Of a DNA stretch of 64,000 nt, positions 493 through 28,857 are shown one piece after another (position 1 is the first letter of the stretch; every line of letters begins with the position of its first letter). Under the pieces are notes generated by a model, which searched no databases, was not told the origin of the DNA, and saw only the letters and a list, made by a program, of their open reading frames with translations. The stretch comes from Tetrapisispora phaffii CBS 4417 (Eukaryota; Ascomycota; Saccharomycetes; Saccharomycetales; Saccharomycetaceae), in NCBI RefSeq assembly GCF_000236905.1, contig NC_016526.1:1-64000 (forward strand), in the 5' to 3' direction. The translations under genes were made by a program, and so were the position numbers.

Positions 493-900
493 TAACCACA
501 ACCGCTCACGTCGCTACCATGTTTGTGAACCTCAGCACAACCACCCATCGCCCCCATCCCTATCTACTCATCTATTCTTACACCCATCACATTCATCACA
601 CCCAACCATCTATCATCTCTCCATCTATATAATTCATCTATCTAATCATATCCATCTATCATCCATCCATTACCCCACTACCATCCATCACATCTGCCAC
701 AATCACTCTCCATCCACATCCTCTCACCCATCCTCTCACCCGCCCATCTCGCCTCCACTCCGCGCGCCCGTCACCCGCCCTGCCCACACCATCCGCTCAT
801 CAACACAGAGCCATAGCGTTCAACAGCCTCTGCTTACCCGCCTCGTCACTCTATCAAACAACACTTCTCATCTCCCAGCCGCATCCACGCGCTCTCAGAT
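480..900 (+). repeat. C-rich low-complexity tract (CCATCTATC-like)
   Basis: This is a strand-asymmetric tract rich in C, A and T and very poor in G, built from degenerate CCATC, CTATC and CACCC words. Open frames across it give Ser/His/Pro-rich strings with no domain and are rejected as genes. Such satellite-like C-rich DNA is expected close to a telomere. Confidence 0.5.
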
Positions 901-1719
901 CCTGAAAATTGAAAACTAAAGCATCGCGTCACATGACCGACATCCTATTGTTCGTACATAATGATTCCATACCTCACCACTTCATCCCTGCTCCATTCAG
1001 CACATATCCTGGCAACATTAACCATATTCTGTCCATACTGTAATAACTGAACGCTATATATGTTAATGGACAGTGTTAATGACCACAAATGCCACTTGCA
1101 CTCACTATTCTATACATATGCATTCTATATCGTCCATCCATGATCCCATCTCTACCTCCCACAACTTCAAACGAATACTAGACTTCTTGCAATGAAGAAT
1201 CTAGATGCACTTATCAATACTATGCAATGCCAAAATACATACTTTTATGTTCCAATCGTCCACATCATCAACTTCCTATATCATGATACATATAAGAGTA
1301 CATTAATCTGAACCAGAGTTCTGGGAAATAGGTTATATCAATACTGTTGCTAGACATTATACAGTCGTATTCTATTATATACTGCACTGGGTAATTATGA
1401 ACCACAATCACTCTACTTTCATATGATCCAGAACACAATATCTGTGTATTAACTCTCCGTATTTAATGTGACTCTTATTCTTGACAGTTATAATTAGTAA
1501 TATAGATATATTACACAGGTGATTATCAATCATGCCAATTAATTCGATCTTTAATTAATAAACATTGTTTTACCACAAATCTATGAGAATCAGGTCATCA
1601 CAAATCCATAATTTAACATTTATCTACTGTCACCTGTCTTCCTCTCTTTCCTGTGTCAGCTTAACTCATTCTGTCCCACCTTCAACACCACTCTCACCAC
1701 TTCTTCTTCTCACGCCTCA
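901..1719. other. Gene-free subtelomeric DNA
   Basis: No open frame of credible composition, RNA gene or recognisable LTR was seen here. The stretch is the spacer between the two inverted repeat arms and the two direct repeat copies. Confidence 0.5.
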
Positions 1720-1904
1720 TCTCTTCTTCACTAAATACTAAAAATAACATTATGCCTATTGTTACCCGCGGCTAACCATACGCTTGCGCGATGTGAAACT
1801 TGAAAAAGAAGAAAACACTCCGTCAGCAGGAATACTCTTTGGCATCAGAACAACCGCTAAACGCAGTAACCTACATTTATTGAAATAGCAAGTAGCAAGG
1901 TGTG
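1720..1904 (+). repeat. Subtelomeric direct repeat, copy 2
   Basis: This is the diverged partner of 46-231, in the same orientation. It keeps the Reb1-like TTACCCG at 1762-1768 and the AACGCAGTAACCT block. Together with the inverted arms it gives the terminal 2.2 kb a composite repeat structure. Confidence 0.65.
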
Positions 1905-2365: not shown

Positions 2366-3330
2366 TCAATCTTTCTCGTCTTGTAAAGTCTCCCACATTT
2401 TATTATAGTTTATAACAACAGATTTATCGTTAGCAAAACATTGTAGGTTCTGTAATAGTTTTTCTGTAATCCAGGATTTTGCAATAATAGAAATGATCAT
2501 CAAGAGGTACATATTTGATTTTATTGGGATGGTTGAAAAAGTCCAATACAAAAGAATGAACACGGTAAAGTGAACACTTTTTAGAGATGAGCTAAAATTC
2601 GCTTGCATTCAGGGATATCTTCATGAAACCTAAAGCATTCAGTAGGAACGTACCAACAGTAAATAGTTTACGCTTATCCCAGCATATGCACTCGGTTGTT
2701 ATACCTGCCAGATATTTACCACAGCGAATGGCCTCTGGTGTTAGAGGGAAGTTGAAGTACTTTGCTGATAACCAATACATGGCGAGACGAGAACGAAACC
2801 CCTTGCCAATTTCAAATAATTCAAAAATGTTATTGTATTTTGAAAATGCAGTATTAAATCTTGATTTTAAATCTGGTAGTTTTCTTCGCTTAACTGGAGT
2901 ACCAAAGTTAGTATCAGGTAAACTGGTCTTGGAATTCGGCTCAGTGGTACAACTTCTGTCAATACCTTTATTCAAATCAGATACCGAAGATTGCAGGACG
3001 CCTAAAGCTGATTTGAGCATATCATACAACTGTAATGTTTGTTGATCATAATTGTAAACAACTGTCAACATGCTCCAACCCATAAAACTCAGCCATTTGT
3101 TATTGATACACATTGTCAGATCAATCAAATCCTCATTACATATGACTGTGTCATACAAAGTTATGCATACCCCACCGTTACGTAGGCGGCCTGCGTGCTG
3201 TATATACTCGGTTAAGAAGTATTACCAAATTCATTGAACGTATATCTATTCCTTCGCCCACTAATTTGGTACCAGATAATGCCCTCACAGAAGGATCTTG
3301 GACAAACTTGTTTGTTCTTGTTATTTTATC
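2366..3330 (-). pseudogene. Decayed Y'-like subtelomeric helicase, C-terminal part
   Basis: Read on the minus strand, 3320 to 3240 encodes SGTKLVGEGIDI followed by MNLVIL, and after a frameshift near 3220 the sequence continues YIQHAGRLRNGGVCITLYD. These are helicase motif V (GEGIDI) and motif VI (Q..GRLR.GG). The combination GTKLVGEGIDI plus GRLR.GG resembles the helicase encoded by S. cerevisiae Y' elements (YRF1), from family knowledge. A 188-codon frame (3158-2592, opening without an ATG) and an 80-codon ATG frame (2608-2366) continue the C-terminus, overlap by 17 bases and are separated by a second frame break. No helicase motifs I-IV are present upstream. I call it a truncated, frameshifted pseudogene; the exact family is inferred from two motifs only. 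Confidence 0.7.
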
Positions 3331-3568: not shown

Positions 3569-4115
3569 GAGACATATTCTAACACTCCATTGCCGTCTCC
3601 TTTATTAATTCTACTCATGTTAAAATGACCTCCTAATTCTTCGTTGTAGATGATGACATGTTCGGGGTGCGTGTGTGTTTCTTCAAAGTGATCAACCACA
3701 CTAGTATTAGTAAAGGTGTTATCACTATTTTAACTATGTTACCCCAAGTCATAGCACCTTGATACTCAGCGTCTCTCTTTAAGGCTCCATTGGCCCAGGC
3801 AGCTACACCAAATACACCAATACTAATTGTGCGTGCAGTGCTTCTCAATGCAGTTAAACAATCAACTTTAGGAATTTTATTTTCATCTTTACATTGACGG
3901 CAGACAGCCAACCAGTCTATAGCAGCATTTGTTGCACTGTAACTAAAAGCTCCATATAATGCAGCTCTATAAAGTCCTTTGTTATCTGTAACTGATAAAT
4001 CAACATTGCCAAATGGCTCCTCAACCTGGTCATAGGAGCCAGCATCCACATCAGATGTGCCAGCAAATATTTGCTCAAAGTAATTCAGAAACAATAGAAA
4101 ACTAAGTAATTGCAT
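3569..4115 (-). pseudogene. K1-like killer preprotoxin relic, copy 1 (has signal peptide)
   Basis: The ATG at 4115 begins a hydrophobic signal peptide (LLSFLLFLNYF) followed by a region identical in protein to copy 2, which carries three cysteines (CRQC and VDC) and a hydrophobic segment (ISIGVFGVAAW) ending at a KR dibasic site. This order (signal, hydrophobic alpha-like segment, Kex2-type KR site) is that of the K1 family of yeast killer preprotoxins. A deletion of about 10 bases near 3720-3730 relative to copy 2 shifts the frame, and translation ends at 3633 after unrelated residues. The old frame continues as homologous DNA to about 3569 and then stops, so the beta-like C-terminal domain is absent. 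Broken gene; the toxin family is inferred from architecture. Confidence 0.7.
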
Positions 4116-5575
4116 CGATTGGATATATCACAGATCTGGTTTATCTTATATTAGCAAAATAGTGACAATACTTCTACTAAGTTACTATTTAAAATGAATA
4201 ATTTATATTTTTCGTTTTTAGATATGGTTGACGTTTTCTTGTTTTAATAAGATATAATCTAAATCACTTCCAACAATCCTAATTTCTCATCTATGTTTAT
4301 ATATTGTATGTTCTCGTGTCCAAAATATATCTTGATGTTTAATACGCTTCTAGCAATCACTCTAACTGTGATCTATTGCATAGTGCATCGTGGTATCTAT
4401 TACAACCATACAAAGCAGTTCGTTTAGGGAACCCGCATATCCTTCTTCGCCTCTTGGCTCACAAATCATCCAAATCAGGCGTAAAATCTGCGCAGAAAGA
4501 TGATACTCTGCAGTCCGGACCACGGACCAATCGGAATCAACAGTCTTTCTTTTAATTCCAACGCGGTGATCTCATTGCATTCCACAGTGCAACCGTCTGC
4601 CCTCTAAGCGCATAATGGCTGCAAAAAATCTGAAACGAAATTTTTCGAAAAATTTCTGACCGCTCTCTCGATGTGCATATTGCCACAAACGAAACAGGTG
4701 AACAAATATTGTCCTGCGCTGTTGTTCTACGAGTTCATGCGGTTCCCAGTTTCGAAACTGAAATGAATTACTCTTGCAGGGTCTTATTTGTTCTTGGCTG
4801 TGGCAGAGGAGTTCATATTTTGTAACTCAGGCTATAGTGCAATTTTTCAGAGGACCAATTGTTATCAAGTTTCAAAAGTTGCAAACAAATGTTGTTGCAT
4901 CAATTGACATTCTTCTCATCGTGATAAAGTGAGGGATTGCAATGCCAAACTTACCAATTGAGATATGCACAATTATTTTTGTTTATCAATTATAAAAAAT
5001 TCGATTTTAAAAGTTTTCGAGAAAACAGACAGCAAAATATTGCAATCAAAATTAAAACAAACTAATGTTGACGCAGTAAGTTTATATAATTGTTAGCTTC
5101 TTTTGATAAAGACATTCAACTTGGTTTTATTTATTCTTTACTTGTTCTCTTATGTCTTATATATCGAATGATTATAATGAGTATATAAGATTCTAAGTTG
5201 GATGTGCTTAACTTTTGTTATTAACAAAAAACTTCCATATTTATATGATTTAAAAATAATGTAATAGATGGTTCAGTCTAGCACAATTTCAACAATCTGA
5301 TCCAAATTGAATTATTAACCATATTTCAACAAATTAAATTATTACTCATAATTCAACACGTTTAATATTATTTACAAATTTGCAATAAAAATAATTGAAA
5401 TAACATTTTTAAAAATTACACATCATAAAAACATTTTCTTTATACACAACTTGAAAAGGATGTCGACTACACCGTTAATAATAAATAACACTAATAATAA
5501 CTTAATACTAGGAAGTGTCTCATAATAGTGTTTTTTATTGAAATACCATTCATGTTTCAACAATTGACTTCTATA
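4116..5575. other. Gene-free spacer between toxin relics
   Basis: About 1.46 kb separates the two toxin copies. I see no coding frame, LTR or RNA gene. The stretch 5300-5370 has loosely repeated AATTATT..TTCAACA words resembling LTR ends, but no complete LTR can be drawn. The moderately GC-richer patch at 4430-4640 has no assignable function. Confidence 0.5.
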
Positions 5576-6397
5576 TTACTTACCATCATCACATTGTGTC
5601 CATACCGGAGTTATTCCATCCTTAGTGTAATACATTCTCCAGGATGCATACCACTCCCAATTAGCATTAGACTCATCATGTAAGTATGTTTTCCAGTAAG
5701 CAGCTGTATAGCCAGAATATCCTTCTTCATTTTCCCCTGATGGAAACATATGATTGGCAACAGCGTCGGCCATATCACCCCAACCAGAGGCAGAAAATCC
5801 AGCCAGATAACTCAAATTCCTGCAATAATCAGCATCAACTTGTCCAACACAAATAGGGTACAAATTCTCTCTCTTTCTTATATAATTATTATCAGTAATA
5901 CTGCTTATTCTAATCACTCCATTGCCGTCTCCTTTATTAATTCTACTCATGTTAAAATGACCCCCTAATTCTTCGTTGTAGATGATGACATGTTCGGGGT
6001 GCGTGTGTGTTTCTTCAAAGTGATCAATCACAGTAGTATTAGGAAAGGTGGTATTACTTGCCATTGCTATTTTAACTATGTTACCCCAAGTCATAGCACC
6101 TTGATACTCAGCGTCTCTCTTTAAGGCTCCATTGGCCCAGGCAGCTACACCAAATACACCAATACTAATTGTGCGTGCAGTGCTTCTCAATGCAGTTAAA
6201 CAATCAACTTTAGGAATTTTATTTTCATCTTTACATTGACGGCAGACAGCCAACCAGTCTATAGCAGCATTTGTTGCACTGTAACTAAAAGCTCCATATA
6301 ATGCAGCTCTATAAAGTCCTTTGTTATCTGTAACTGATAAATCAACATTGCCAAATGGCTCCTCAACCTGGTCATAGGAGCCAGCATCCACATCAGA
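5576..6397 (-). pseudogene. K1-like killer preprotoxin relic, copy 2 (5'-truncated by LTR)
   Basis: The frame runs from the LTR boundary at 6397 to a stop at 5576 without interruption, but has no ATG: upstream in frame the LTR supplies a TAA. Visible parts in order are an acidic leader remnant, a cysteine-containing hydrophobic alpha-like region, a KR site after ANGAL, a glycosylatable linker (NTT, NMS sequons), a second KR site (IRKREN), and a C-terminal beta-like domain with the YPIC..ADYC pattern and a terminal cysteine near the end. That alpha-KR-linker-KR-beta plan matches K1-type killer toxins, processed by Kex2 in the secretory pathway. The signal peptide is missing, so it cannot be secreted as it stands. 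Family assignment is inference from pattern. Confidence 0.75.
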
Positions 6398-6820
6398 TGT
6401 TGAATATTAGATTTGTTGGTTATTAGATTTTATTTGATTATTCATTGTTAAGAGTCAGTAATTTATTATAATTCTCCGTCGGGATCTATATAAAAAAATA
6501 ATACATAAAATATACTAATTATACAAGTTGATTAAGACAGTTGATTTATTTTACATGGCTGGAAAAACCCTGGTATTTATACCTCTGATTTCTGTCACGA
6601 TCACAAAACCATTTCATCTTCGAAAGACATGTCTGATAGTGAGTGGTTTTAATTTCCACTTTCGAGTGTGACGTTCGCCTATTTCAGTTATACGATTATC
6701 AAATCATTACAAATGTGATATTTACTCTTTCCTAATTCCAGTATGTGTTATCCTATTTGGTCAAACACTAAATCAAATTAGGCAAGATATAAATATTTTC
6801 AACAATTGTTATATCCAACA
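6398..6820 (-). mobile_element. Solo LTR of a Ty1/copia-type element (minus strand)
   Basis: On the minus strand it begins TGTTGGATATAAC at 6820 and ends TATTCAACA at 6398, 423 bp, with the same internal landmarks as the plus-strand LTRs at 10390 and 10933 (a TTAGTGTTTGACC block, CATGTAAAATAAATCAACT, ATCTATATAAA-like region). The 5-bp flanks differ (TCAGA on the left, AAAAG on the right), so it is not a simple insertion with target duplication. It abuts the toxin relic on one side and an integrase fragment on the other. Confidence 0.85.
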
Positions 6821-7023
6821 AAAAGGTAAATTTGCTGATTTCAAATACGTTCGACAATCGTTCAACAATGTTCTATTTAAACGTTCTGCAACGCCATGGG
6901 CTTGTGAGTCGTTAACTGGGGTATAAACGTAATTGATACCTAGTCTGTCCAGAAATGATGTGACTGTTTTGTTGGTGAATTCCACTACCACTGCCGAATA
7001 TTCATTGAAAAATGATGAGTCAA
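6821..7023 (-). mobile_element. Ty1/copia integrase core fragment
   Basis: Translation on the minus strand gives [17 protein letters not shown], a [21 protein letters not shown] stretch and [13 protein letters not shown]. The [15 protein letters not shown] segment is the signature following the second catalytic Asp of Ty1-type integrases. The fragment lacks the rest of integrase and is cut by the LTR starting at 6820, so it is a nested relic rather than part of the plus-strand element that follows. Confidence 0.85.
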
Positions 7024-7088
7024 CAAAAATTGATGAAAACTAAAGAGAAACATCAACCGTTAATAACCATTAGAAGATAACGGTGCAC

Positions 7089-8054
7089 AAATGTATCATA
7101 GAAATCATATGGGAGAGTACATCCCAGTTAAAACGTACAAAAACCAAAGTGCTTTTCCAACATAATTTCCAGAAAGGCCACACTATCAAGCTTACCCAAT
7201 TTCCTTTTATCAGGGTACAAATTCTACGCCATCCAATTGCACCCATAGGAAAGAATATTTCACACCACCGTCTCACCATTCTACTTATTTCTATCGTTCG
7301 ATTCCTGATGTATTCAACACAAATATTCCATCGCGATTATTTTTTGTTTATAATACCAATGTATTTTACAAGTGGATTACAGGGTTACTTGACCACTTAG
7401 CCCAATACGGATATCAACATCTTATTCCACCATCACACGGGCAAATTAAACAACCTCCTTCCGAGCATGATATTGCAGGTCTCAACTCACTGTTTCAACA
7501 CTTTGTTCCTTTTCAGTTCTATCCACAAGAACTACAAGATGCTTATAATAAAAGTTTTAGATTCTTATCATATACTTCAAGAAGCCATGGCTCTAGCTAA
7601 TACCGCTCACAGCTCCACTAATATTATGAATAAACTCAAAAACATAAATTATATTGGCAGTGAGCCTGCATTCATTTTCATTTCCATGATTCGTGAATTA
7701 ATCAATCTAATTCGTCCTGAGGAATATTTTCACTTAGAACTAATTATTATTAATTACATACTAAACTCCTTAAACGGTGATTATGCTTCCATTAGAGATC
7801 ACTTCTCACAGCCACCCCAATATACTATCGAAGATATCTTCGCATCCATCCGCAGCAAGTATGAATACATGAAAATGAACAAGAGTATCAACACCACCTC
7901 CACTTCTCAAACTGATACTTGTCACACCTGTTCCAGACCACTACATAAGAGAATCATTTGCCAATTAGGTAACAAATCCGGGCATAGTGCAAAAAACTGT
8001 TACCATCATAATTTTCAAACAATAATGTGTCACCTGTCAAAAACTAACTTTTAA
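7089..8054 (+). pseudogene. Ty1/copia gag relic
   Basis: An ATG at 7089 opens a Pro/Tyr-rich frame that carries one internal TAA (about 7161) and continues through PDVFNTNIPSRLFFVYN and a YKWITGLLDHLAQYGY segment. After a frame change it continues in the frame ending at 8054 with a Gag-like helical region (ALANTAHSSTNIMNKL, IRPEEYFHLELIIINYI). The end has a degenerate zinc knuckle (CQLGNKSGHSAKNC). Proline-rich N-terminus, conserved helical core and C-terminal knuckle fit a copia-type Gag. At least one stop and one frameshift make it non-functional. Confidence 0.7.
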
Positions 8055-8633
8055 CTGAAAGTACGTGGCGAAGTTGATTATGCTCTTTTAACATCATCTA
8101 CATCATTTGGTTATCACATTTATATGCCATCCAATCATCGTATTGTTGACACCACAAATTATTTTATACTCACACAACAAGAATACATTAACGACAAAAA
8201 ACTTGTCAAACCACTCCAAAATTGATGAATTCATTAACGAGATGTTTCCTGTTGTCGATTAATCTGTGAATAACGAAGATAACTATAATAAAAATGTGGA
8301 TTCACATTCCCAGTCTTCGATGTACAATGTTCCCGTTGATAGTTTTTTGACTACGAATACCGAATTCGATAATAATAACATTAATACCGATACAGCCATT
8401 GAACCACTGACAGTTCATGACACTGACACTTTACTGGACACGATTAATGACACAGAAGTAGCCGCTACGTTACCTAAGGCATCTGATACACTGATTAATC
8501 AGTCGAAGTCTACTACTACGGCCGACTCAGTCTCTTCTTCACCATCATCATCATCACCACCACCAATACTACCAGTCGCGACAGGTGCAACTATCGTTTT
8601 CCAACATCTTCTACTAGTTTAGTGGGGTAGACA
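8055..8633 (+). pseudogene. Ty1/copia pol relic: protease-integrase junction remnant
   Basis: Between gag and reverse transcriptase only about 0.6 kb remains where an intact element would carry protease and integrase (over 2 kb). An open stretch at 8266-8622 is Asn/Asp/Thr/Ser-rich with SSPSSSSPPP, resembling the low-complexity C-terminal tail of integrase. No protease DSGA motif or integrase core is present. I infer an internal deletion. Confidence 0.55.
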
Positions 8634-9470
8634 ATGTCTCTCGCTAACAGAAATAAAAGTGAGAGAGACAACTCTAACAATCCAGAAACTAATGAGAAGG
8701 ATGACAAAAAACGAAAATATACACTAAACTTTATCAAAACAATAGAAAACGGACTACAAAATGTTCAACCTAATGCTATGGAAAAGTCTATAATGTACCA
8801 CCCAGCCATAACCCATAACAAAAACCACTCACAAAGATCAAAGTTCATCCAAGCGTACAAAAAGTAACTACAATCACTACAAAATATGGGAACTTGGGAT
8901 GGTGTACCTATCGATGAAAACACAATAAATAAATCCAACATAATTAATACTATGTTTATATTTACAGTTAAACGAGACGGTACGCACAAGGCAAGACTGA
9001 TAGCAAGAGGTGACCAACAACATTACAATACCTATAATAAGGACGAAAAATCTAACACTGTACACCATTATGCTCTTATGACGTGCTTATCACCGGCATT
9101 AGACAACAACCATGATGTTATCCAATTAGATGTATCGTCGGCATATCTGTATGTGGATTCAGATGAAGAACTATTCATTAGACCTCCTCCACATCTAACT
9201 ATGCAAGGAAAGGTATTAGCGTTACGGAAATCACTTTGTGGTCTGAAACAATCAGGTGCTAATTGGTAGAAGTTAATTAAAAAATCCTTAATAGAAGACT
9301 GTGAAATGAAAGAAACAAGCGGTTGGCCATGTGTCTTTACAAAAAGAGTAAAGAAAAGTATTGTAATATTTTACTTGTTTGTAGATTATACGGTTATCAC
9401 CACAAATGTCAGGAAGACCGAATATGTAATAATATAATTAATTCAATCCAGCTTCAAGACAAAGATTATA
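8634..9470 (+). pseudogene. Ty1/copia reverse transcriptase relic
   Basis: Successive frames (8634-8867 and 8886-9269, separated by an in-frame stop at about 8865) encode [70 protein letters not shown] and [12 protein letters not shown]. These are copia-type RT motifs, including the first catalytic aspartate block (QLDVSSAYL). Further downstream a decayed FVDYTVITT replaces the second catalytic block, where a YVDD-like motif is expected. The frame then degenerates. Confidence 0.85.
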
Positions 9471-9720
9471 AACGATGGAGCAGACCCATTAGTTAAATCA
9501 TATGATATTCCAGATCTCGATATCGAATATATACAAAAATATATATATGTCACTCGGTATGGAAAACGACATAGATTAGAAAATTAAGAACTTTAACATA
9601 GACCTGTCACCTATCCGAAGGGTGCCAGGGAATCCCAAGGAAATAATAATCAGAGAAGATCTAGAGGTAAATAAACTTGAATACAAGAAAAAGATTTTAT
9701 GGATGTAACAAACCATTACA
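9471..9720 (+). pseudogene. Ty pol relic, decayed connection region
   Basis: The connecting region between RT and RNase H is present only as diverged, multiply interrupted sequence. It contains short recognisable scraps and no continuous frame. Confidence 0.45.
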
Positions 9721-10368
9721 TTGGCGTCATATATTGGTTACAAATTTTGGTTCGATATTTTGTATTGTGTAAATTGTCTAGCAAGACACACATTATATCC
9801 GTCTAAACAAGTAATTAGGTTCACTAAGGAATTGTTACAATTTCTTTGGCAAACAAGGTCTAAAAGATTGGTCTGGAATAAGCGAGATAAAACGGATGAT
9901 GATGCAAACTATATCACTGGAATCGTTGACGCATCATTCGCTAAACAAGAAGAATACAACTCCCAATATGGAGCAGTCATACAATTGAACTCAAATATGA
10001 TTGGTGCAGTATCTTGGAAGCTTAAACTAACGTGTGCTTCATCTACTGAAGCTGAATTATATGCTATATCCGAATCAATACCTAGAATTGCTAACCTCTC
10101 TCATCTAATAACTGAAATCTGTGGATATCAACCTACAAGGACAATTTATTCTGACAGTCAGTCTGGAATTGCTTCTATAATATCAAAAGACGCTGGTATT
10201 CTAAAGAACAAATTTTACGGGATAAGATTATTGAAGATTATTGAGGAAACCAAGGATAATGGTATTAATATCGAATATGTTAATACTAAGGAGAATATTG
10301 CAAATATTCTAACTAAACCAGTTGAAACTAAGACTTTCAAGGAACTGACATGTGATTGGATTTCATAA
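9721..10368 (+). pseudogene. Ty1/copia RNase H domain relic
   Basis: A continuous frame of 215 codons, opening without an ATG, encodes SYIGYKFWFDILYCVNCLAR, GIVDASFA, a VSWKLKLTCASSTEAELYAI segment, YSDSQSGIASI, and NIEYVNTKENIANILTKPV before a stop at 10368. These are the landmarks of the RNase H domain at the end of copia Pol (D in VDAS, E in STEAE, D in SDSQS, and the terminal ILTKP). It is the best preserved part of the element and ends 21 bp before the 3' LTR. Confidence 0.85.
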
Positions 10369-10380
10369 GCTATTTCGTTA

Positions 10381-10389
10381 TGGGGGGTA
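10381..10389 (+). other. Polypurine tract of the Ty element
   Basis: TGGGGGGTA lies immediately before the LTR start at 10390. This is the position and type of sequence used to prime plus-strand DNA synthesis in Ty1/copia elements. Confidence 0.7.
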
Positions 10390-10767
10390 TGTTGGATATA
10401 AAAATTAATGAAAATATTTGTATCCTGCCTAGTTTGATTTAGTGTTTGAACAAATGGGATAACACTTTTGTGATGATTTGTTATTCGTATAACTGAAATA
10501 GGCAAACAACGCAATCCAATTGGTAATTAAAATCACTCAATATATTTAACATGTCTTTCGAAGATGGAATGGTGTCGTTATCGTGACAGAAATCATTGGT
10601 ATAAATACTAGGGTTTTCTAACCATGTAAAATAAATCAACTTTTTTAATCAAATTCTATAATTAGTATATGTTATATATTATTTATTTTATATAGATCCC
10701 GACGGAGAATTATAATAAATTACTGACTCTTGACAATGAATAATCAATTAAAATCTCATATTCAACA
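10390..10767 (+). mobile_element. 3' LTR of the plus-strand Ty1/copia relic
   Basis: It starts TGTTGGATATAAA and ends ATTCAACA (378 bp), directly follows the polypurine tract and pol relic, and is alignable along its length with the LTRs at 10933 and 28447 and the reverse complement of 6398-6820. The matching 5' LTR is missing, since no TG..CA LTR lies upstream of gag on the plus strand. Confidence 0.88.
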
Positions 10768-10932
10768 CAAATTGCAATAAAATGATCTAGATGTTATGAG
10801 ATTTATTTATATTTAGGGAAGTTTTTTTAAAATTTGCCAACTAATGAAAAACAAATGGACGTTAAATATTGTTTACTAAATATAAATATTAGAATTTAAA
10901 ACCATGAAAAGATTAGATATTTTGCTAGAAAA

Positions 10933-11373
10933 TGTTGGATATGAAAATTGTTGAAAATATTTATATCTTAACTAACTCGACTTAGTGTTTGACCAAATAG
11001 GATAACACATACTGGAATTAGGAAAGAGTAAATATCACATTTGTAATGATTTGATAATCGTATAACTGAAATAGGCGAACGTCACAATCCAAATTGGAAC
11101 AGAAAATCACTTGATATAATTGACATGTTTTGCGAAGATGAAATGGTTTCATGATCGTGTCAGAAATAATTTGGTATAAATACCACGGTTTTTCCAGCCA
11201 TGTAAAATAAATCAACTTTTTTTAATCAACTTGTGTATTTAGTACATTTTATATATTATTTATTTTATACAGATCCCCACGGAGAATTATAATAAGTTAC
11301 TGACACTTAACAATGAATAATCAAATAAAATCTAAGATAGAACAATAATCAATTAAAATCTAATATTCAACAA
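10933..11373 (+). mobile_element. Solo LTR, Ty1/copia type
   Basis: TGTTGGATATGAAAATTG at the start and AATATTCAACA at the end define 441 bp. It shares the TTAGTGTTTGACCAAATAGG, CATGTAAAATAAATCAACT and ATCCCCACGGAGAATTATAA blocks with the other LTRs. Near its end it has a partial duplication of an ATAATCAATTAAAATCTAA-like segment, which explains its extra length. The flanks GAAAA and ATATT do not form a target-site duplication. Confidence 0.85.
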
Positions 11374-11384
11374 TATTAAATATA

Positions 11385-11530
11385 TCTAGAGATTATTAGT
11401 TTCAACTTGGATTGTGACTTTTGTCTACTTCAGTTATATGAATAAAACAATTCATCACCTATGTGATATTTACTCTTGCTAGTTTAAGTAAGTAATTATA
11501 CAACTTTATAAATATCCAATAAGTTAAGTG
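11385..11530 (-). mobile_element. LTR fragment (minus strand), decayed
   Basis: TTGGATTGTGACTTTTGTCTA, CTTCAGTTATATGA, ATGTGATATTTACTCTTG and a terminal ATATCCAA match the U3 half of the minus-strand LTR at 6398-6820. The remainder of the LTR is absent. Its GTTTAAGTAA segment is shared with the relic at 12960, suggesting a second LTR subfamily. Confidence 0.65.
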
Positions 11531-17939: not shown

Positions 17940-20900
17940 ATGACTACAACAATGGTTTTTAAACTATTAATTTTATTGTTACTATCCCTAAAACTTATAT
18001 TTGCTCTGGATGGTGGTACAAAAACATCATATTATTGTCAAAGCACTGACTCAACCATAGTTACTTCTACAAGTACGAAAAAGGGAACTACTCTACTTGC
18101 TGTATATACAACAACATACTCTTCCATTTTCTTCCCATATTCCGCTTCCCAATCAACAACAACCTTACAAACTTCTGGTCCTTCTTCAACTGTTACCTCC
18201 ATTACCTACTCTACAATAGATAGTGCAACTTCTTCTATTTGTCAAACTGTGACGGTAACTTTGATATATACACCACTGATCCGCACATCATTCACTACTA
18301 CTACTGCTTCCTCCGTTGATAGTACCATTACATACTCTACTTCAATTTACAAAGATGCTGGCAATCTAACTGAAACTACTGTATATTATGTGGCCACTCC
18401 AATACGTAGGTCTACTGAAACCAAAAGAACCACAAGTGCCTTTAATGGTAGTTCCCAAACGTACAGTATCATTTATGAAACTGTGACTGATGCTTCGGGA
18501 AATGAAACAACACAGACCACATACTATGTTGCTGTTCCAACCAATCTACTGCTTTCTACCACTACTGATGACGGTTGGACGGGTAGTGTTGCGACTACAT
18601 GGTCTACACAATTTGTGACGACCACTGGTGCTGACGGCTTAGCTACTCCAGGTACTGTGTATTGGGTTCACACTTCGAGAGTGGCCGGTATTACAGTCAC
18701 CGGTACATGGTCAGGCACGTTTACGACGTTCTACTCCACCAGTACTTCGTATAGCACTGATAGGAATATTATCGGTGTAGCTACCTCGACATACACTACA
18801 ACATACTACTACATCCATATTCCAGCATTTAATAGGACAACTACTACCACGACTGCTTCTGTAGAATCAGCAACCCGTACATATTCCACGTCGATTTACT
18901 CTGTTACTGATTCTGATGGAAACGTGACGACCAGCACCATCTATTACGTTGCTACCCCTACACGTAAATCTACCGCTACCTCTAGTACTACCAGTAACTA
19001 CAGTGGCAGTACTATGACTTACACAACCGTTATCAACACTTACACTGATGCTAGTGGAAATGCCACTACTCAGACTACATACTATGTTGCTGTTCCTACT
19101 AACTATTTAAAATCTACTACTACCAATGACGGTTGGGCCGGTGATGCTGCGACTACATGGTCTACACAATTTGTGACGACCACTGGTGTCGATGGATCTA
19201 CCACTCCAGGTACTGTGTATTGGGTTCACACTTCACGAGAATCTGGTGTCACAATCACAAGTGCTTGGACTGGTAATTTCACGACTTTCTATACCACTTC
19301 TGTCTCATATTCAACTGGATATTTCCTTGGTGTTGCAACAGGAACAAGAACTACAACGTACTATTTTCTTTATATTCCACACTATGGATCAACTGTGTCC
19401 TCCACTAGTTGGGGAAGTCATTCTGATACAATCACGGCAAGTACTGTACTAACATCCTATACGCTAGATAATGGCGATGTCAGTACCATTACATATTATT
19501 ACATCGAAACACCCGTTCGTCGTAGTACATCTAGCTATACGCTGAAAAGTAGCTTCCGTGGTACTAAATCATCAACTTATTTATCTATTTCTAGAACTAT
19601 TACGGATGAAAATGGTAATGAGACAACTGAAACTACATACTTCATTGCTATTCCTACCGCTCTTTTTAGTACAACGACTACTGCACCATGGTCAGGCTTT
19701 TATACCTATACATACTCTATTGGAACTGATGTTGTTACAGGCGATGATGGATTTACTTCCACAAAAACAGTCTATCATGTCGCTACCCCAACACCCGACG
19801 GTTATTGGGTAACAACTTATTGGACTGGAACCTATACGACTTATTACCAGGATGGTTATACTTATGCTTGGGGTTTCTCTTATTTAATTATTTTTGGTTA
19901 CTGGCGTTATTCATTATTTTACTTAGAAACTCCATTGCGTAGAACAGGTTATACAACAACCACAAACGCCTGGGATTCTACTTTTACCTTAACTGCTAAT
20001 TTAATAACATCGACTACAGGTTATGATGGTTATGAGACTACCGTAACTATTTATACATTGTGGACTCCTGCAAGTACACTAACTAGAACGGAATTCAGAC
20101 AGGGTACATTTTCAGGCACTACAAGTGATACAATTAGTACAACAACTGAGAGAATTGGTGATGATATCAGCTACTACTACCAACTTATCTATTATATCAA
20201 TTTGCCATTAAACATAGGCGAATCAACTACTTACACCAGCTGGGATAGTAGCTTTGGATCTAGTGTTTCGACATATTTGACTACTAGTACGAATATAGAC
20301 GACGTGCTTTACACAGTCACAGTTTATATTGTAGCCACTCCATCAATTCCATATTCTACAAGTTCCACTGGATGGACTGGATCTTATGACAGAATCGCAT
20401 CAACGACATCTTTCACTTCTTTGGGTTATATCGATAACTTTTTAGCCCACTGGACTATCACCGTTATTGTCATAGAAACTGCTTATCGTAAATCAACTTC
20501 AAGAGTTTTAACTTGGGGTTCTGTTAACCAGGATATTACCTATTTGACCTCTATATTTATTACTACTAATGTGTTAGGACAAGAGGTGACTGAAACTGTA
20601 TATTATGTCACAACACCTATTCGTGTGACATCTACTACACGTTATTATCCATTTTCATCAAATACGCATACCACTACTATCTCTATTGGTACTACAACTT
20701 TTGTTGGTACCGATGCATATTCTACTACTGAAACCATTTATTATGTCGCTATTCCTTTAAATTCTCTACGTACTACAGTATTTACGAATTGGACTGGTAG
20801 TTATATTGATTTTTATTCAACTGTCACAGGCAGTTCAAAGACTACTACTTATTATGTCAGAACACCAGGGGACGGTTTAGTCACCACTTTTATTGATTGG

Positions 20901-23900
20901 GCTGGTGACTATACTACAACAATTTTAACAACTACGTCTATGAGTTATGGATTTTCTGAAGAGTATTATGGTGGATGGTCATATACTGTATATATCGTTG
21001 AAACGCCTCAACGATATACTTCCACCACTTCATATGATCCATGGATTCAAACATACACTAAAACCTATAGAGAAACTATAAGGACCTTCACTGGTAACGA
21101 CGGAGAAGAAACAACAGAGACAATATTTTACGTTTATACTCCTTGGCGTATTACTACAACTTCTACAACAACTGGTTGGCAAAATTTCAGTACCCAAACA
21201 TATACGACTGCAACTATTATCACTAATGGGAAGGATGGGTTTGAATCCACAATTATTATATATATGGTAGCAACGCCTCAAGAAATGTTTACCAGTACTT
21301 CTTATTCGGCTTGGACTTATGCTTCGACAGACACTTGGTCTACTAGTATTCTAACTGGTACTAATACTAACGGATTTATTTACACTCAAACAATTTACTT
21401 TGTCAATACTCCCAAAAGAGAGTCTTTTACTACGACATACGACCCTGTAAGTTCTATTGATTATACTTCTACATTATCAACACGAATTAGTACTTATACA
21501 GCTAGCAATGGGGAAGAAACTACCGAGTACACATATTTTGTCATTACACCAATATTCAATACTTTCTCGACTAAATACACGTTATGGGATGCTGATGAAA
21601 GTTACACATATTCTACTCTAATTACTACCGTCACTAAGGATGGTAATGCAGTTACCGAAACTATCTACTATGTTTATACGCCGAAGAGAATGTTTATCAG
21701 TACTATTTTTACTTATGGCAATGGTCCAACATTAACCTTATCCACAGCTTTTACGACAGTTACGGATTCAGAAGGGAATGCTACTACTGGTACTGTTTAT
21801 TTTGTGCAAACGCCAGTTAGATTATCAACTTCGAGCACTTATGTTTCTTGGTCTATTGAATCACTCTCAACTTCAATACAAACAGTCACTTTAACTGATG
21901 AAGATGGAGATGAAATTACAGAAACTATCTATTATGTGTATGGTCCAGAATACAACTTGACATCTACAACTTTCATTACAGCATCATTTGAAGATGGTGA
22001 AACTTTGTCGACAATTTCGTCCGCATATTATGGTAGTGACGGTTTCTTAACCAATGCAGTGATTTATCTTGTTAACGTCATAGAACGAGAAACAACTTCT
22101 GAATTTCAAGAAACCTCTTCTGAAGAAACCTCCACTGAAGAAACCTCTTCTGAAGAAACGTCTAGTGAAGAAACGTCTTCTGAAGAAACGTCTAGTGAAG
22201 AAACGTCTTCTGAAGAAACGTCCACTGAAGAAACCTCTGCCATGGAAACCTCTGGTGAATCCTCTGGTGAACAATCTTCTGCCACTGAATCCTCTGGTGA
22301 ACACTCTTCAACTGTTGAATCCTCCGTTGAAGAATCTCCTGCCACTGAATATATTACAACGAACTTACAAACAAGTGAATATACTGACTCTGAAGGCAAT
22401 GTCACCACTGGCACCACCACGTTCCCAGTCGAATCCTCGTCCGAAGCCTCGTCCGAAGCCTCGTCCGAAGCCTCTCTAACGACCTCCACGTACACGTCGA
22501 CTGACTCTGAAGGCAATGTCACCACTGGCACCACCACGTTCCCAGTCGATTCCTCGTCCGAAGCCTCGTCCGAAGCCTCTCTAACGACCTCCACGTACAC
22601 GTCGACTGACTCTGAAGGCAATGTCACCACTGGCACCACCACGTTCCCAGTCGAATCCTCGTCCGAAGCCTCGTCCGAAGCCTCGTCCGAAGCCTCGTCC
22701 GAAGCCTCTCTAACGACCTCCACGTACACGTCGACTGACTCTGAAGGCAATGTCACCACTGGCACCACCACGTTCCCAGTCGAATCCTCGTCCGAAGCCT
22801 CATCCGAAGCCTCTCTAACGACCTCCACGTACACGTCGACTGACTCTGAAGGCAATGTCACCACTGGCACCACCACGTTCCCAGTCGAATCCTCGTCCGA
22901 AGCCTCGTCCGAAGCCTCTCTAACGACCTCCACGTACACGTCGACTGACTCTGAAGGCAATGTCACCACTGGCACCACCACGTTCCCAGTCGAATCCTCG
23001 TCCGAAGCCTCGTCCGAAGCCTCTCCAACGACCTCCACGTACACGTCGACTGACTCTGAAGGCAATGTCACCACTGGCACCACCACCTTCCCAGTCGAAT
23101 CCTCGTCCGAAGCCTCTCTAACGACCTCCACGTACACGTCGACTGACTCTGAAGGCAATGTCACCACTGGCACCACCACGTTCCCAGTCGAATCCTCGTC
23201 CGAAGCCTCGTCCGAAGCCTCTCTAACGACCTCCACGTACACGTCGACTGACTCTGAAGGCAATGTCACCACTGGCACCACTACTTACCCAATCACATCT
23301 GTGACTAGTTCTATTTTAACAGGGTCATCTGAGGAAACTGATATCATTTCGTTCTGGACTAGCACTGATTCTGAAGGAAATGTTTCAACCGGCTCTACTA
23401 CAATTCCAGTAACAATGACCACCTCCACGTACACGTCGACTGACTCTGAAGGCAATGTCACCACTGGCACCACCACCTTCCCAGTCGAATCCTCGTCCGA
23501 AGCCTCATCCGAAGCCTCTCTAACGACCTCCACGTACACGTCGACTGACTCTGAAGGCAATGTCACCACTGGCACCACCACGTTCCCAGTCGAATCCTCG
23601 TCCGAAGCCTCTCTAACGACCTCCACGTACACGTCGACTGACTCTGAAGGCAATGTCACCACTGGCACCACCACCTTCCCAGTCGAATCCTCGTCTGAAG
23701 CCTCGTCCGAAGCCTCGTCCGAAGCCTCTCTAACGACCTCCACGTACACGTCGACTGACTCTGAAGGCAATGTCACCACTGGCACCACCACGTTCCCAGT
23801 CGAATCCTCGTCCGAAGCCTCTCTAACGACCTCCACGTACACGTCGACTGACTCTGAAGGCAATGTCACCACTGGCACCACCACGTTCCCAGTCGAATCC

Positions 23901-26900
23901 TCGTCCGAAGCCTCGTCCGAAGCCTCGTCCGAAGCCTCTCCAACGACCTCCACGTACACGTCGACTGACTCTGAAGGCAATGTCACCACTGGCACCACCA
24001 CGTTCCCAGTCGAATCCTCGTCCGAAGCCTCGTCCGAAGCCTCGTCCGAAGCCTCTCTAACGACCTCCACGTACACGTCGACTGACTCTGAAGGCAATGT
24101 CACCACTGGCACCACCACGTTCCCAGTCGAATCCTCGTCCGAAGCCTCTCTAACGACCTCCACGTACACGAAGCCTCTCCAACGGACCTCCACGTACACC
24201 TCGACTGACTCTGAAGGCAATGTCACCACTGGCACCACCACGTTCCCAGTCGAATCCTCGTCCGAAGCCTCGTCCGAAGCCTCTCTAACGACCTCCACGT
24301 ACACGTCGACTGACTCTGAAGGCAATGTCACCACTGGCACCACTACTTACCCAATCACATCTGTGACTAGTTCTATTTTAACAGGGTCATCTGAGGAAAC
24401 TGATATCATTTCGTTCTGGACTAGCACTGATTCTGAAGGAAATGTTTCAACCGGCTCTACTACAATTCCAGTAACAATGACCACCTCCACGTACACGTCG
24501 ACTGACTCTGAAGGCAATGTCACCACTGGCACCACCACGTTCCCAGTCGAATCCTCGTCCGAAGCCTCATCCGAAGCCTCTCCAACGACCTCCACGTACA
24601 CGTCGACTGACTCTGAAGGCTATGTCACCACTGGCACCACCACGTTCCCAGTCGAATCCTCGTCCGAAGCCTCGTCCGAAGCCTCTCCAACGACCTCCAC
24701 GTACACGTCGACTGACTCTGAAGGCAATGTCACCACTGGCACCACCACGTTCCCAGTCGAATCCTCGTCCGAAGCCTCGTCCGAAGCCTCGTCCGAAGCC
24801 TCTCTAACGACCTCCACGTACACGTCGACTGACTCTGAAGGCAATGTCACCACTGGCACCACCACGTTCCCAGTCGAATCCTCGTCCGAAGCCTCGTCCG
24901 AAGCCTCGTCCGAAGCCTCATCCGAAGCCTCGTCCGAAGCCTCGTCCGAAGCCTCATCCGAAGCCTCTCTAACGACCTCCACGTACACGTCGACTGACTC
25001 TGAAGGCAATGTCACCACTGGCACCACCACTTCCCAGTCCGAATCCTCGTCCGAAGCCTCTCTAACGACCTCCACGTACACGTCGACTGACTCTGAAGGC
25101 AATGTCACCACTGGCACCACCACCTTCCCAGTCGAATCCTCGTCCGAAGCCTCGTCCGAAGCCTCGTCCGAAGCCTCTCTAACGACCTCCACGTACACGT
25201 CGACTGACTCTGAAGGCAATGTCACCACTGGCACCACCACGTTCCCAGTCGAATCCTCGTCCGAAGCCTCGTCCGAAGCCTCTCTAACGACCTCCACGTA
25301 CACGTCGACTGACTCTGAAGGCAATGTCACCACTGGCACCACTACTTACCCAATCACATCTGTGACTAGTTCTATTTTAACAGGGTCATCTGAGGAAACT
25401 GATATCATTTCGTTCTGGACTAGCACTGATTCTGAAGGAAATGTTTCAACCGGCTCTACTACAATTCCAGTAACAATGACCACCTCCACGTACACGTCGA
25501 CTGACTCTGAAGGCAATGTCACCACTGGCACCACCACGTTCCCAGTCGATTCCTCGTCCGAAGCCTCGTCCGATGCCTCTCTAACGACCTCCACGTACAC
25601 CTCGACTGACTCTGAAGGCAATGTCACCACTGGCACCACCACGTTCCCAGTCGAATCCTCGTCCGAAGCCTCGTCCGAAGCCTCTCCAACGGCCTCCACG
25701 TACACGTCGACTGACTCTGAAGGCAATGTCACCACTGGCACCACCACCTTCCCAGTCGAAGCCTCGTCCGAAGCCTCTCTAACGACCTCCACGTACACGT
25801 CGACTGACTCTGAAGGCAATGTCACCACTGGCACCACCACGTTCCCAGTCGAATCCTCGTCCGAAGCCTCGTCCGAAGCCTCATCCGAAGCCTCTCTAAC
25901 GACCTCCACGTACACGTCGACTGACTCTGAAGGCAATGTCACCACTGGCACCACCACGTTCCCAGTCGAATCCTCGTCCGAAGCCTCGTCCGAAGCCTCG
26001 TCCGAAGCCTCTCTAACGACCTCCACGTACACGTCGACTGACTCTGAAGGCAATGTCACCACTGGCACCACCACGTTCCCAGTCGAATCCTCGTCCGAAG
26101 CCTCGTCCGAAGCCTCGTCCGAAGCCTCTCCAACGACCTCCACGTACACGTCGACTGACTCTGAAGGCAATGTCACCACTGGCACCACCACCTTCCCAGT
26201 CGAATCCTCGTCCGAAGCCTCGTCCGAAGCCTCATCCGAAGCCTCTCTAACGACCTCCACGTACACGTCGACTGACTCTGAAGGCAATGTCACCACTGGC
26301 ACCACCACCTTCCCAGTCGAAGCCTCGTCCGAAGCCTCTCTAACGACCTCCACGTACACGTCGACTGACTCTGAAGGCAATGTCACCACTGGCACCACCA
26401 CGTTCCCAGGCGAATCCTCGTCCGAAGCCTCGTCCGAAGCCTCTCTAACGACCTCCATGTACATTTCGACAGACTCGGAGCGTAATGTCTCTAGTATTAT
26501 CACATCCTACCCAGTTGAATCCTCCTTTTCTTCGCACATTTCTTTGTCTGGCAGTTCGATTGGTTCAGCAAGTCCGTCTACTTCATTAGCTGCTTCGACG
26601 AACACTGATTTAGCATCGACTTGGACTAGTATAAGCTCAGAGAGCTTTTTGTCAACTGGAACCACCTCTATTGAAGTTTCATCAAGCATATCATCGTATA
26701 TATCTGTCATCGTGTCATCAGAGGCAACCTACTATAGCAATTCTTCCTATGTTCATTCAACATCTTCTGACGGTACTATTTTAACCTCAATTACCAGCCC
26801 ATCAAGCAGCAGTCCAACAGTCAGTGCTTCATTTAGCCATTATGAGTCGTGTGTAATTTACACAAGGGGTACAACCATTAATGGCAGCGCGTTAGATGCA

Positions 26901-27644: not shown

Positions 27645-28446
27645 TAGACAATTTTTAAAATTTAATAATTTTTGTTTGATATTTGATTTCATCTCCATAC
27701 TTATCGAAATTTATGTACATATTTATATATGTATATATTAATAAAAATAATATTAATCTTCTTAGCTCTTTAATAATATAGTTACGTATTTTCTTGGGTG
27801 GATGTTATCCACTATCTGTAGTTTTTAAGAAGTTTCAGTGAAACATGTACAAACCATATACTTTCCGTGTTAACTTCCGTTTCAAGAGACATAAAGAACC
27901 TATTATTTTAATACTTGTAACTATAACAACTATTTGATAGGAGGAATATACAGATTTTGGATAATTTATCATTAGTTTTTTTGACGACAATTAACTTTTC
28001 CGACTCTATATTCGTCAAGTAGATATTTTAAAGAATTCACAATCTAGAAATGTAGTGCTTTATATTATATATCAGATTGAATATAATTGTAAACATCTTT
28101 GTGGTGCGAAAGCCTGTGTGAACCGAATACACATTGTGTTTCGTTAGTAATCTATACAATATTAATGCATTGCCTAAATTTTCGGTCAATACTAATTTCT
28201 TTCTTATTTTGTGAGGATATTCATTTTGTCTTCACAACGCTATGAAACTTCTCTTATGTACATTATAAGAATGTCTTGAAATTTTTACTTCTACCGTTCA
28301 GATACTATGAAAAAGTAAATAGTCCATCAAAACATGACATCATACTATTCCGTGAGAGTTAGAATGTTTTCGTATCGGTGGTACTAATTCCAGTGTTTGT
28401 GATAACAAGAGTTTAAGTCATTTACTATATTGTCGCGATTGTAAAA
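27645..28446. other. Downstream region of the adhesin gene
   Basis: AT-rich DNA with TATATATGTATATATTAA-like words about 80-100 bp after the stop that could serve as yeast 3'-end processing signals. No gene was found. Confidence 0.45.
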
Positions 28447-28857
28447 TGTTGGATATAATAATTGATAAAAGATTTATATCTTGCCTAATTGGAGTATGTG
28501 TTATTGTATTTTGGTCATACACTACGTCAAATTAGGAAAGAGTAAATATCACATATGTGATGATTTGTTATTCGCATTACATAAGCAGCCAAACGTCACA
28601 ATCCAAATTGGAAATTAAAATCATTCAATATATTCAACATGTCTTTCGAAGATGGAAGGGTTTCGTGATCGTGACAGAAATCATTGGTATAAATACCAGG
28701 TTTTTTCTAGCCATGTAAAATAAATCAACTGTCTTAATCAACTTGTATAATTAGTCTATTATATATATTATTTATTTTATATAGATCCCCACGGAGGATT
28801 ACAATAAATCACTGACTCTTAACAACGAATAATCAATTAAAATATAATATTAAATAT
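28447..28857 (+). mobile_element. Solo LTR, Ty1/copia type
   Basis: It starts TGTTGGATATAATAATTG and carries TTGCCTAATT, AGGAAAGAGTAAATATCACA, TGTCTTTCGAAGATGGA, CCATGTAAAATAAATCAACT and ATCCCCACGGAGGATTACAA, as in the LTRs at 10390 and 10933. The 3' terminus is altered (TATTAAATA instead of TATTCAACA), so the right boundary is approximate. Confidence 0.82.

Follow-up and report, generated by a model that had tools for sequence, protein, structure and literature searches.

Two tandem, differently broken copies of a K1-family killer toxin gene in a subtelomere of Tetrapisispora phaffii

Near one end of contig C7 in the Tetrapisispora phaffii CBS 4417 assembly (12.1 Mb, 17 contigs) lie two stretches that resemble the gene for a K1-type killer preprotoxin, and the locus raises the question of what these stretches are, where they came from and whether either could still serve the cell. 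The window, that is, the whole stretch of DNA analysed, comprised bases 1-64000 of this contig (808,783 bp). We found one gene present twice, with both copies on the minus strand and 2.34 kb apart. The best explanation, which we hold to be very probable, is that these are two tandem copies of a gene that forms its own lineage within the K1-like killer toxin (KKT) family; they lie in the C7 subtelomere, and both are broken as toxin genes. The pair consists of the following features.

3633-4115, minus strand: copy 1 ORF, 160 aa, with a signal-like N-terminus, an alpha part with three cysteines, a KR, 16 gamma residues and a 30-residue tail in a shifted frame
3575-3729, minus strand: remainder of the copy 1 gamma in the original frame, in a separate open piece (3729-3544)
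5576-6406, minus strand: copy 2 open frame, 276 codons, with alpha, KR (97), gamma, KR (179), beta and a stop

The first-pass annotation had placed two differently broken copies of a K1-family toxin gene at 3569-6397. The sequence anatomy and the near-identity of the copies confirmed this reading, and the span was correct to about 10 bases. The start codon of copy 1 lies at 4115, and the copy 2 frame opens at 6406. The subtelomeric site was likewise upheld, as the pair lies near the contig end, at 3.6-6.4 kb from it, with subtelomeric taken to mean within about 20 kb of a chromosome end. The proposed K1-family layout also stood, both in the order of parts in copy 2 (alpha with three cysteines, KR, gamma, KR, beta with three cysteines) and in the homology to T. 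phaffii relatives.

In copy 2, the KR pairs ended at residues 97 and 179, which in the alignment fell near the KR sites of the paralogues at the alpha/gamma and gamma/beta borders; they are putative Kex2-type dibasic sites at which cleavage is predicted. The cysteines were found at residues 55, 58 and 69 in alpha and at residues 186, 195 and 272 in beta. By their published layout, the K1 and K1L preprotoxins have the same succession of an alpha part with three cysteines, KR, gamma, KR and a beta part with three cysteines, and the 3+3 split of six cysteines is described in PMC13211469 as the pattern in K1L and its homologues. The spacing of the alpha cysteines was 3 and 11 in copy 2, compared with 3 and 12 in K1 (C92/C95/C107), and the last cysteine lay four residues from the C-terminus, as does C312 of 316 in K1 (K1 numbers as given in PMC13211469). 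The ancestral gene of the pair presumably encoded a precursor of the K1 type that was processed by Kex2 and attacked membranes. A Pfam search with copy 2 gave no family match, and the Pfam and PDB sequence searches with it returned nothing credible, the best matches being to F-box, Tudor, matrix protein and PDI at E-values between 0.034 and 0.87. The protein database searches matched only the window's own ORFs together with TPHA_0A00120 and TPHA_0C05025 of T. phaffii, which were so few that a deep alignment of copy 2 could not be made. The AlphaFold model of copy 2, built from an 8-row alignment, had a mean pLDDT of 32 and was unusable for structure comparison.

As had been annotated, copy 2 was found to hold alpha, the gamma linker, beta and two KR sites with no start, in the 276-codon open frame 6406-5576. 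It had neither a promoter nor a start codon nor a signal peptide, and its homology to copy 1 stopped on the 5' side at about 6400; the first ORF in this frame that begins with ATG started at 6094 and was 172 aa long. Because the promoter, start and signal peptide are gone, the product should not enter the secretory pathway. Two further features lie at this side of copy 2.

about 6399-6824, no strand assigned: LTR-like repeat whose TGTTG...CAACA ends were identified in the sequence itself; it adjoins copy 2 at the point where the homology to copy 1 stops
6809-10368, mixed orientation: Ty/copia-type remnants, with RVT_2 detected by Pfam in 8886-9269 (+)

The copy 2 break coincides with this putative LTR. 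Among the genome DNA matches, 28 of 32 fell on the first part of the repeat (window about 6397-6500) and were spread over 15 contigs, the others being the window itself and three matches at the C16 end; the longer genome matches spanned most of the repeat's length. The piece at 6809-7039 (-) bears some resemblance to an integrase, and another piece on the plus strand some resemblance to gag. We also observed that 6809-11477 formed a rearranged nest made up of Ty/copia fragments together with LTR-like repeats, their orientation mixed, and additional LTR-like repeats were present at 10390-10767, 10933-11335 and 28443-28851. Elsewhere in the window, the first 2.2 kb contained subtelomeric repeats (15-492 and 1688-2169), one pair direct (78%) and one inverted (87%), and the subtelomeric ORFs at 2366-3113 (minus strand) were 80 and 173 aa long, the latter without a Pfam match at 0.01. 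A 3234-aa ORF at 17940-27644 (plus strand), with 17 flocculin-repeat stretches and Hpf1_C repeats, is a very large cell-wall adhesin-like gene.

Copy 1 was broken at the other end. Its ORF began with MQLLSFLLFLNYFEQIFAG, an N-terminus that was hydrophobic and signal-like as judged by eye. The frame shifted early in gamma because copy 1 has 10 nt fewer than copy 2 there, and the shifted tail contained a 15-residue stretch with a mean Kyte-Doolittle value of 2.77. The piece in the original frame ceased to match copy 2 near 3575, short of any sequence for beta, so that copy 1 had no beta (binding) part. The annotation of copy 1 as keeping a signal-like start and alpha, losing frame and lacking beta was therefore borne out by the ORF at 4115-3633, the 10-nt gap and the end of homology at about 3575. 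If transcribed, copy 1 would make at most an alpha-plus-tail fragment resembling the K1 immunity part; on comparison with the related toxin, it would still encode a product resembling much of the part that protects the producer. An uninterrupted frame from a start codon to beta was present in neither copy, and neither is likely to be able to yield active toxin.

Upon alignment of the two copies, 3575-4058 matched 5906-6400 with 96.97% identity over 495 columns. The first 332 columns were without any substitution and were directly followed by the 10-nt gap in copy 1; all six substitutions (6/6) lay beyond this gap, five of them within 28 nt, and one more gap of 1 nt was found near the end. A simulation that placed six substitutions at random over the 484 ungapped columns put all of them past the gap in 83 of 100,000 trials, and it reproduced the grouping of five within 28 nt in 16 of 100,000. 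Either one complex mutation or gene conversion evening out alpha could explain this clustering, and we make no choice between them. The duplication that gave the pair, or a later gene conversion of alpha, was probably recent.

To place the pair, thirteen stretches with matches were taken from the assembly as the family set, and all of them (13/13) matched a family query again. The members that retain a sizeable frame are listed below.

C2:1055-1927: uninterrupted paralogue, 291 aa
C11:10320-11192: uninterrupted paralogue, 291 aa, 95% identical to that on C2
C1:8390-9319: uninterrupted paralogue TPHA_0A00120, 310 aa
C3, within 1089000-1091500: KKT copy TPHA_0C05025, 268 aa, with alpha, gamma and part of beta
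C11 near 514 kb: truncated alpha ORF, 146 aa, keeping the N-terminus and alpha
C2 near 8 kb: truncated alpha ORF, 161 aa, or 146 from the second ATG, keeping the N-terminus and alpha
C8: truncated alpha ORF, 200 aa, keeping the N-terminus and alpha
C2 right end: truncated alpha ORF, 209 aa, keeping the N-terminus and alpha

Five partial copies were also present, on C13 (where the contig stops within the copy), C4, C15 and, twice, C11. The C8 and right-end C2 ORFs had a long N-terminal extension ahead of the hydrophobic stretch and no clear classical signal peptide. Relative to C1, small gaps near the alpha/gamma border of the C3 copy replaced the KR region, and the frame stayed open. The suggestion that an intact paralogue may exist elsewhere was thus right in part: uninterrupted genes were found on C2, C11 and C1 when the assembly was searched, but they belong to different lineages. 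Over residues 3-275, copy 2 was 34% identical to the protein from C2 (E 7e-56) and to that from C11 (E 1e-56); its identity to TPHA_0A00120 was 22% (E 2e-16), and because the identity to the uninterrupted paralogues is only this high, we consider the copy pair a lineage of its own. No intact member of this lineage was found in the assembly, within the sensitivity of the homology searches. The 3+3 cysteine pattern was not exactly kept in the uninterrupted paralogues, with seven cysteines in C1 (one in gamma) and nine in each of C2 and C11.

We assign the copy pair to the published T. phaffii KKT family, known since 2021 (PMC7888664). The text of that paper (Fredericks et al. 2021) counts 24 KKT genes plus 14 pseudogenes over six yeasts, T. 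phaffii among them, and places most of these in subtelomeres; the pair may well be among these 38 loci. The pair is like the KKT genes described there in species, subtelomeric location and domain order, and truncated or pseudogenised copies are known among them. Inactivation in that account is biased to truncations that leave alpha and little gamma; copy 2, in contrast, is broken in the opposite way, with its 5' end gone at an LTR-like repeat. According to the same text, KKT transcripts are present in T. phaffii, with TpKKT1 and TpKKT2 not distinguishable, and from this and the near-identical C2/C11 pair we infer that the uninterrupted genes on C2, C11 and C1 are TpKKT1-3. TpKKT1-3 were cloned in that study, and growth inhibition is reported there only from one gene each of P. 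membranifaciens, K. africana and N. dairenensis, so toxin activity in the T. phaffii branch is itself putative. A literature search returned no paper whose title or abstract opening treats the copy 1/copy 2 pair.

K1 and K1L are encoded on M satellite dsRNAs, whereas the copy pair is chromosomal and broken, with no satellite flanks seen, and the first-pass annotation had taken chromosomal copies to point to endogenisation. A recent integration of a dsRNA satellite copy at this locus would agree with the coding of K1 and K1L on dsRNA and with the 2.34 kb copy spacing, which is near the 2,371 bp of M1L (PMC7888664). However, A or T runs in the spacer between the copies were at most 6 nt long, the spacer held segments common to another chromosome end (C16), the KKT family is already diverse in the T. 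phaffii genome, and the survey in PMC7888664 detected no satellite dsRNA in this species. Recent integration at the locus is thus extremely improbable, and the spacer and dsRNA evidence does not support the endogenisation claim. A search of the locus for satellite flanks (a 5' GAAAAA end and internal poly(A)) did not reveal them; one GAAAAA lay 98 nt upstream of the copy 1 ATG in the 200 nt examined, and chance could give one in AT-rich DNA. A satellite concatemer, considered as the source of the 2.34 kb spacing, was dropped for the lack of a long A or T run and for the DNA held in common with C16. The shared DNA is as follows.

4556-4975, minus strand: three spacer segments upstream of the copy 1 ATG, which match at 81-89% the DNA on the upstream side of a DUF5341 gene at the C16 end

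The C16 gene, at 814-1848 (minus strand) of C16:391500-394523 near the end of that contig, is a 344-aa ORF with DUF5341 (E 8.3e-55), a domain associated in PMC13211469 with the beta portion of K2/KHS family toxins. Since the 81-89% match lies upstream of both this ORF and copy 1, two toxin families may share upstream subtelomeric DNA.

The reading as two broken toxin genes leaves room for a use of what remains of copy 1. According to PMC7021474 and PMC5705960, K1 alpha expressed without gamma is suicidal, extension by gamma or by its first 39 residues diminishes this suicide, and alpha with gamma, or with part of it, protects the cell when in the secretory pathway. The minimal K1 immunity region is given as delta, alpha and 31 gamma residues, with import into the secretory pathway (PMC7021474, PMC13211469); loss of the Kex2 site inside gamma weakened K1 immunity, and Gier et al. 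2020 hypothesised that only the physicochemical properties of the alpha extension matter (PMC7021474). Copy 1 is like the K1 alpha-gamma immunity constructs of PMC7021474 and PMC5705960 in its signal-like start, alpha, KR and C-terminal extension, and it differs in that this extension consists of 16 gamma residues and 30 out-of-frame residues with a hydrophobic tail. Copy 1 could accordingly be read as a retained immunity gene, in which a secretory alpha with a short C-terminal extension protects from K1-family toxins and beta was lost as unneeded. We consider this unlikely. An extension that needs only certain physicochemical properties (PMC7021474, PMC13211469) would fit copy 1, as would the truncation bias to alpha and little gamma for which immunity was proposed in PMC7888664; but the in-frame gamma part of copy 1 is only 16 residues long, compared with the 31 named for K1, and copy 1 is without the gamma-internal Kex2 site that is important in K1 (PMC7021474). 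Moreover, its alpha is identical to that of copy 2, so selection on copy 1 is not measurable. In the account of PMC7888664, K. africana carries several truncated KKT genes and is still susceptible to many KKT toxins, and each killer yeast is susceptible to the toxins of the others.

The truncated alpha ORFs of T. phaffii, five including copy 1, all kept the N-terminus, alpha and a tail, which agrees with retention for immunity. None of the five (0/5) ended inside alpha, and this would also be expected if alpha alone harms the producer, so that only tailed or silent truncations survive and no benefit is needed. Such a filter, which we judge somewhat unlikely, accords with the suicidal effect of K1 alpha without gamma and its lessening by a gamma extension (PMC5705960, PMC7021474), although the sample of five ORFs is small. 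A hydrophobic tail in a shifted frame followed the KR in three of the five, with 15-residue means of 2.77 in copy 1, 2.49 in the C11 ORF (514 kb) and 2.88 in the C2 ORF (8 kb); in the other two (C8 and right-end C2), the highest 15-residue means in that half were 1.48 and 1.43, inside alpha. Entry points into the +1 frame near the KR gave a 15-residue mean of at least 2.4 in 26 of 35 cases in each of the uninterrupted C2 and C11 paralogues and in 0 of 35 in each of C1 and copy 2, and in 78 of 9716 cases among 14 further ORFs of the window that were at least 200 aa long. We therefore did not take the tail as strong proof that selection has acted: in C2 and C11 the +1 frame close to the KR is hydrophobic in any case, and because the family's own +1 frame is biased in this way, the tail alone is weak evidence. 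Relative to C1, a one-base gap after the KR was common to C11 (514 kb), C3 and C2 (8 kb), its exact place in C2 being ambiguous; the frameshift may therefore predate the divergence of these three, with parallel loss also possible.

Selection was then assessed on the truncated paralogues in several tests, uncorrected and on few branches. When the C2 (8 kb) ORF was compared with the C11 (514 kb) ORF, dN/dS for signal and alpha was 0.25 (bootstrap 0.13-0.46), with none of 1000 replicates reaching 1, and for alpha by itself it was 0.31 (0.15-0.58), whereas the shifted tail gave 0.64 (0.22-2.11), with no measurable constraint; bootstrap replicates in which dS was undefined were left out, and 965 of 1000 remained for the tail. 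Between C8 and the right-end C2 copy, the value was 0.47 (0.21-1.09). On the C2 (8 kb) branch, changes at codon positions 1/2/3 numbered 12/7/24 in signal and alpha and 26/27/21 in gamma and beta (Fisher p 0.0055; p 0.0087 with C3 in place of C11). The branches were polarised with C1, gamma was counted from codon 147 with codons 128-146, under the shifted tail, left out, and the C2 counts were identical under four alignment settings. A first version with gamma from codon 132 gave 12/7/24 against 31/28/24 for C2 (8 kb) (p 0.0039) and 9/7/8 against 8/9/15 for C11 (p 0.41). No contrast between alpha and gamma plus beta was found on the C11 branch (9/7/8 against 7/8/15, p 0.27) or on the C3 branch (11/7/10 against 10/8/13, p 0.79), most of whose history is common with C11.

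The contrast on the C2 (8 kb) branch and the low C2/C11 ratios for signal plus alpha and for alpha speak for immunity, and a filter against bare alpha does not by itself account for alpha constraint beside gamma and beta drift on this branch. The absence of contrast on the C11 and C3 branches speaks against immunity, and neither the C8 versus right-end C2 ratio, with an interval that reaches past 1, nor the tail, in which no constraint was measurable, lends it support. As a lead, the codon changes suggest that alpha in the C2 (8 kb) paralogue was constrained while gamma and beta drifted; one truncated paralogue thus shows signs of retention for alpha, and the others do not. An immunity role of the truncated KKT ORFs is possible on these data. 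That frameshifts early in gamma repeatedly made alpha proteins with hydrophobic, possibly membrane-anchoring tails in T. phaffii (copy 1, C11 514 kb and C2 8 kb), kept as dedicated K1-family immunity genes, we regard as distinctly doubtful.

Read as two broken toxin genes, the copy pair adds one more case of gene birth and decay within a killer-toxin family carried on chromosomes. An immunity function for truncated KKT ORFs was put forward in 2021, and the present analysis adds codon-position evidence for alpha constraint in the C2 (8 kb) paralogue, with no such signal on two other branches. If that suggestion is true, yeasts would carry self-protection genes derived from toxins, which would bear on the unsolved mechanism of K1 immunity.
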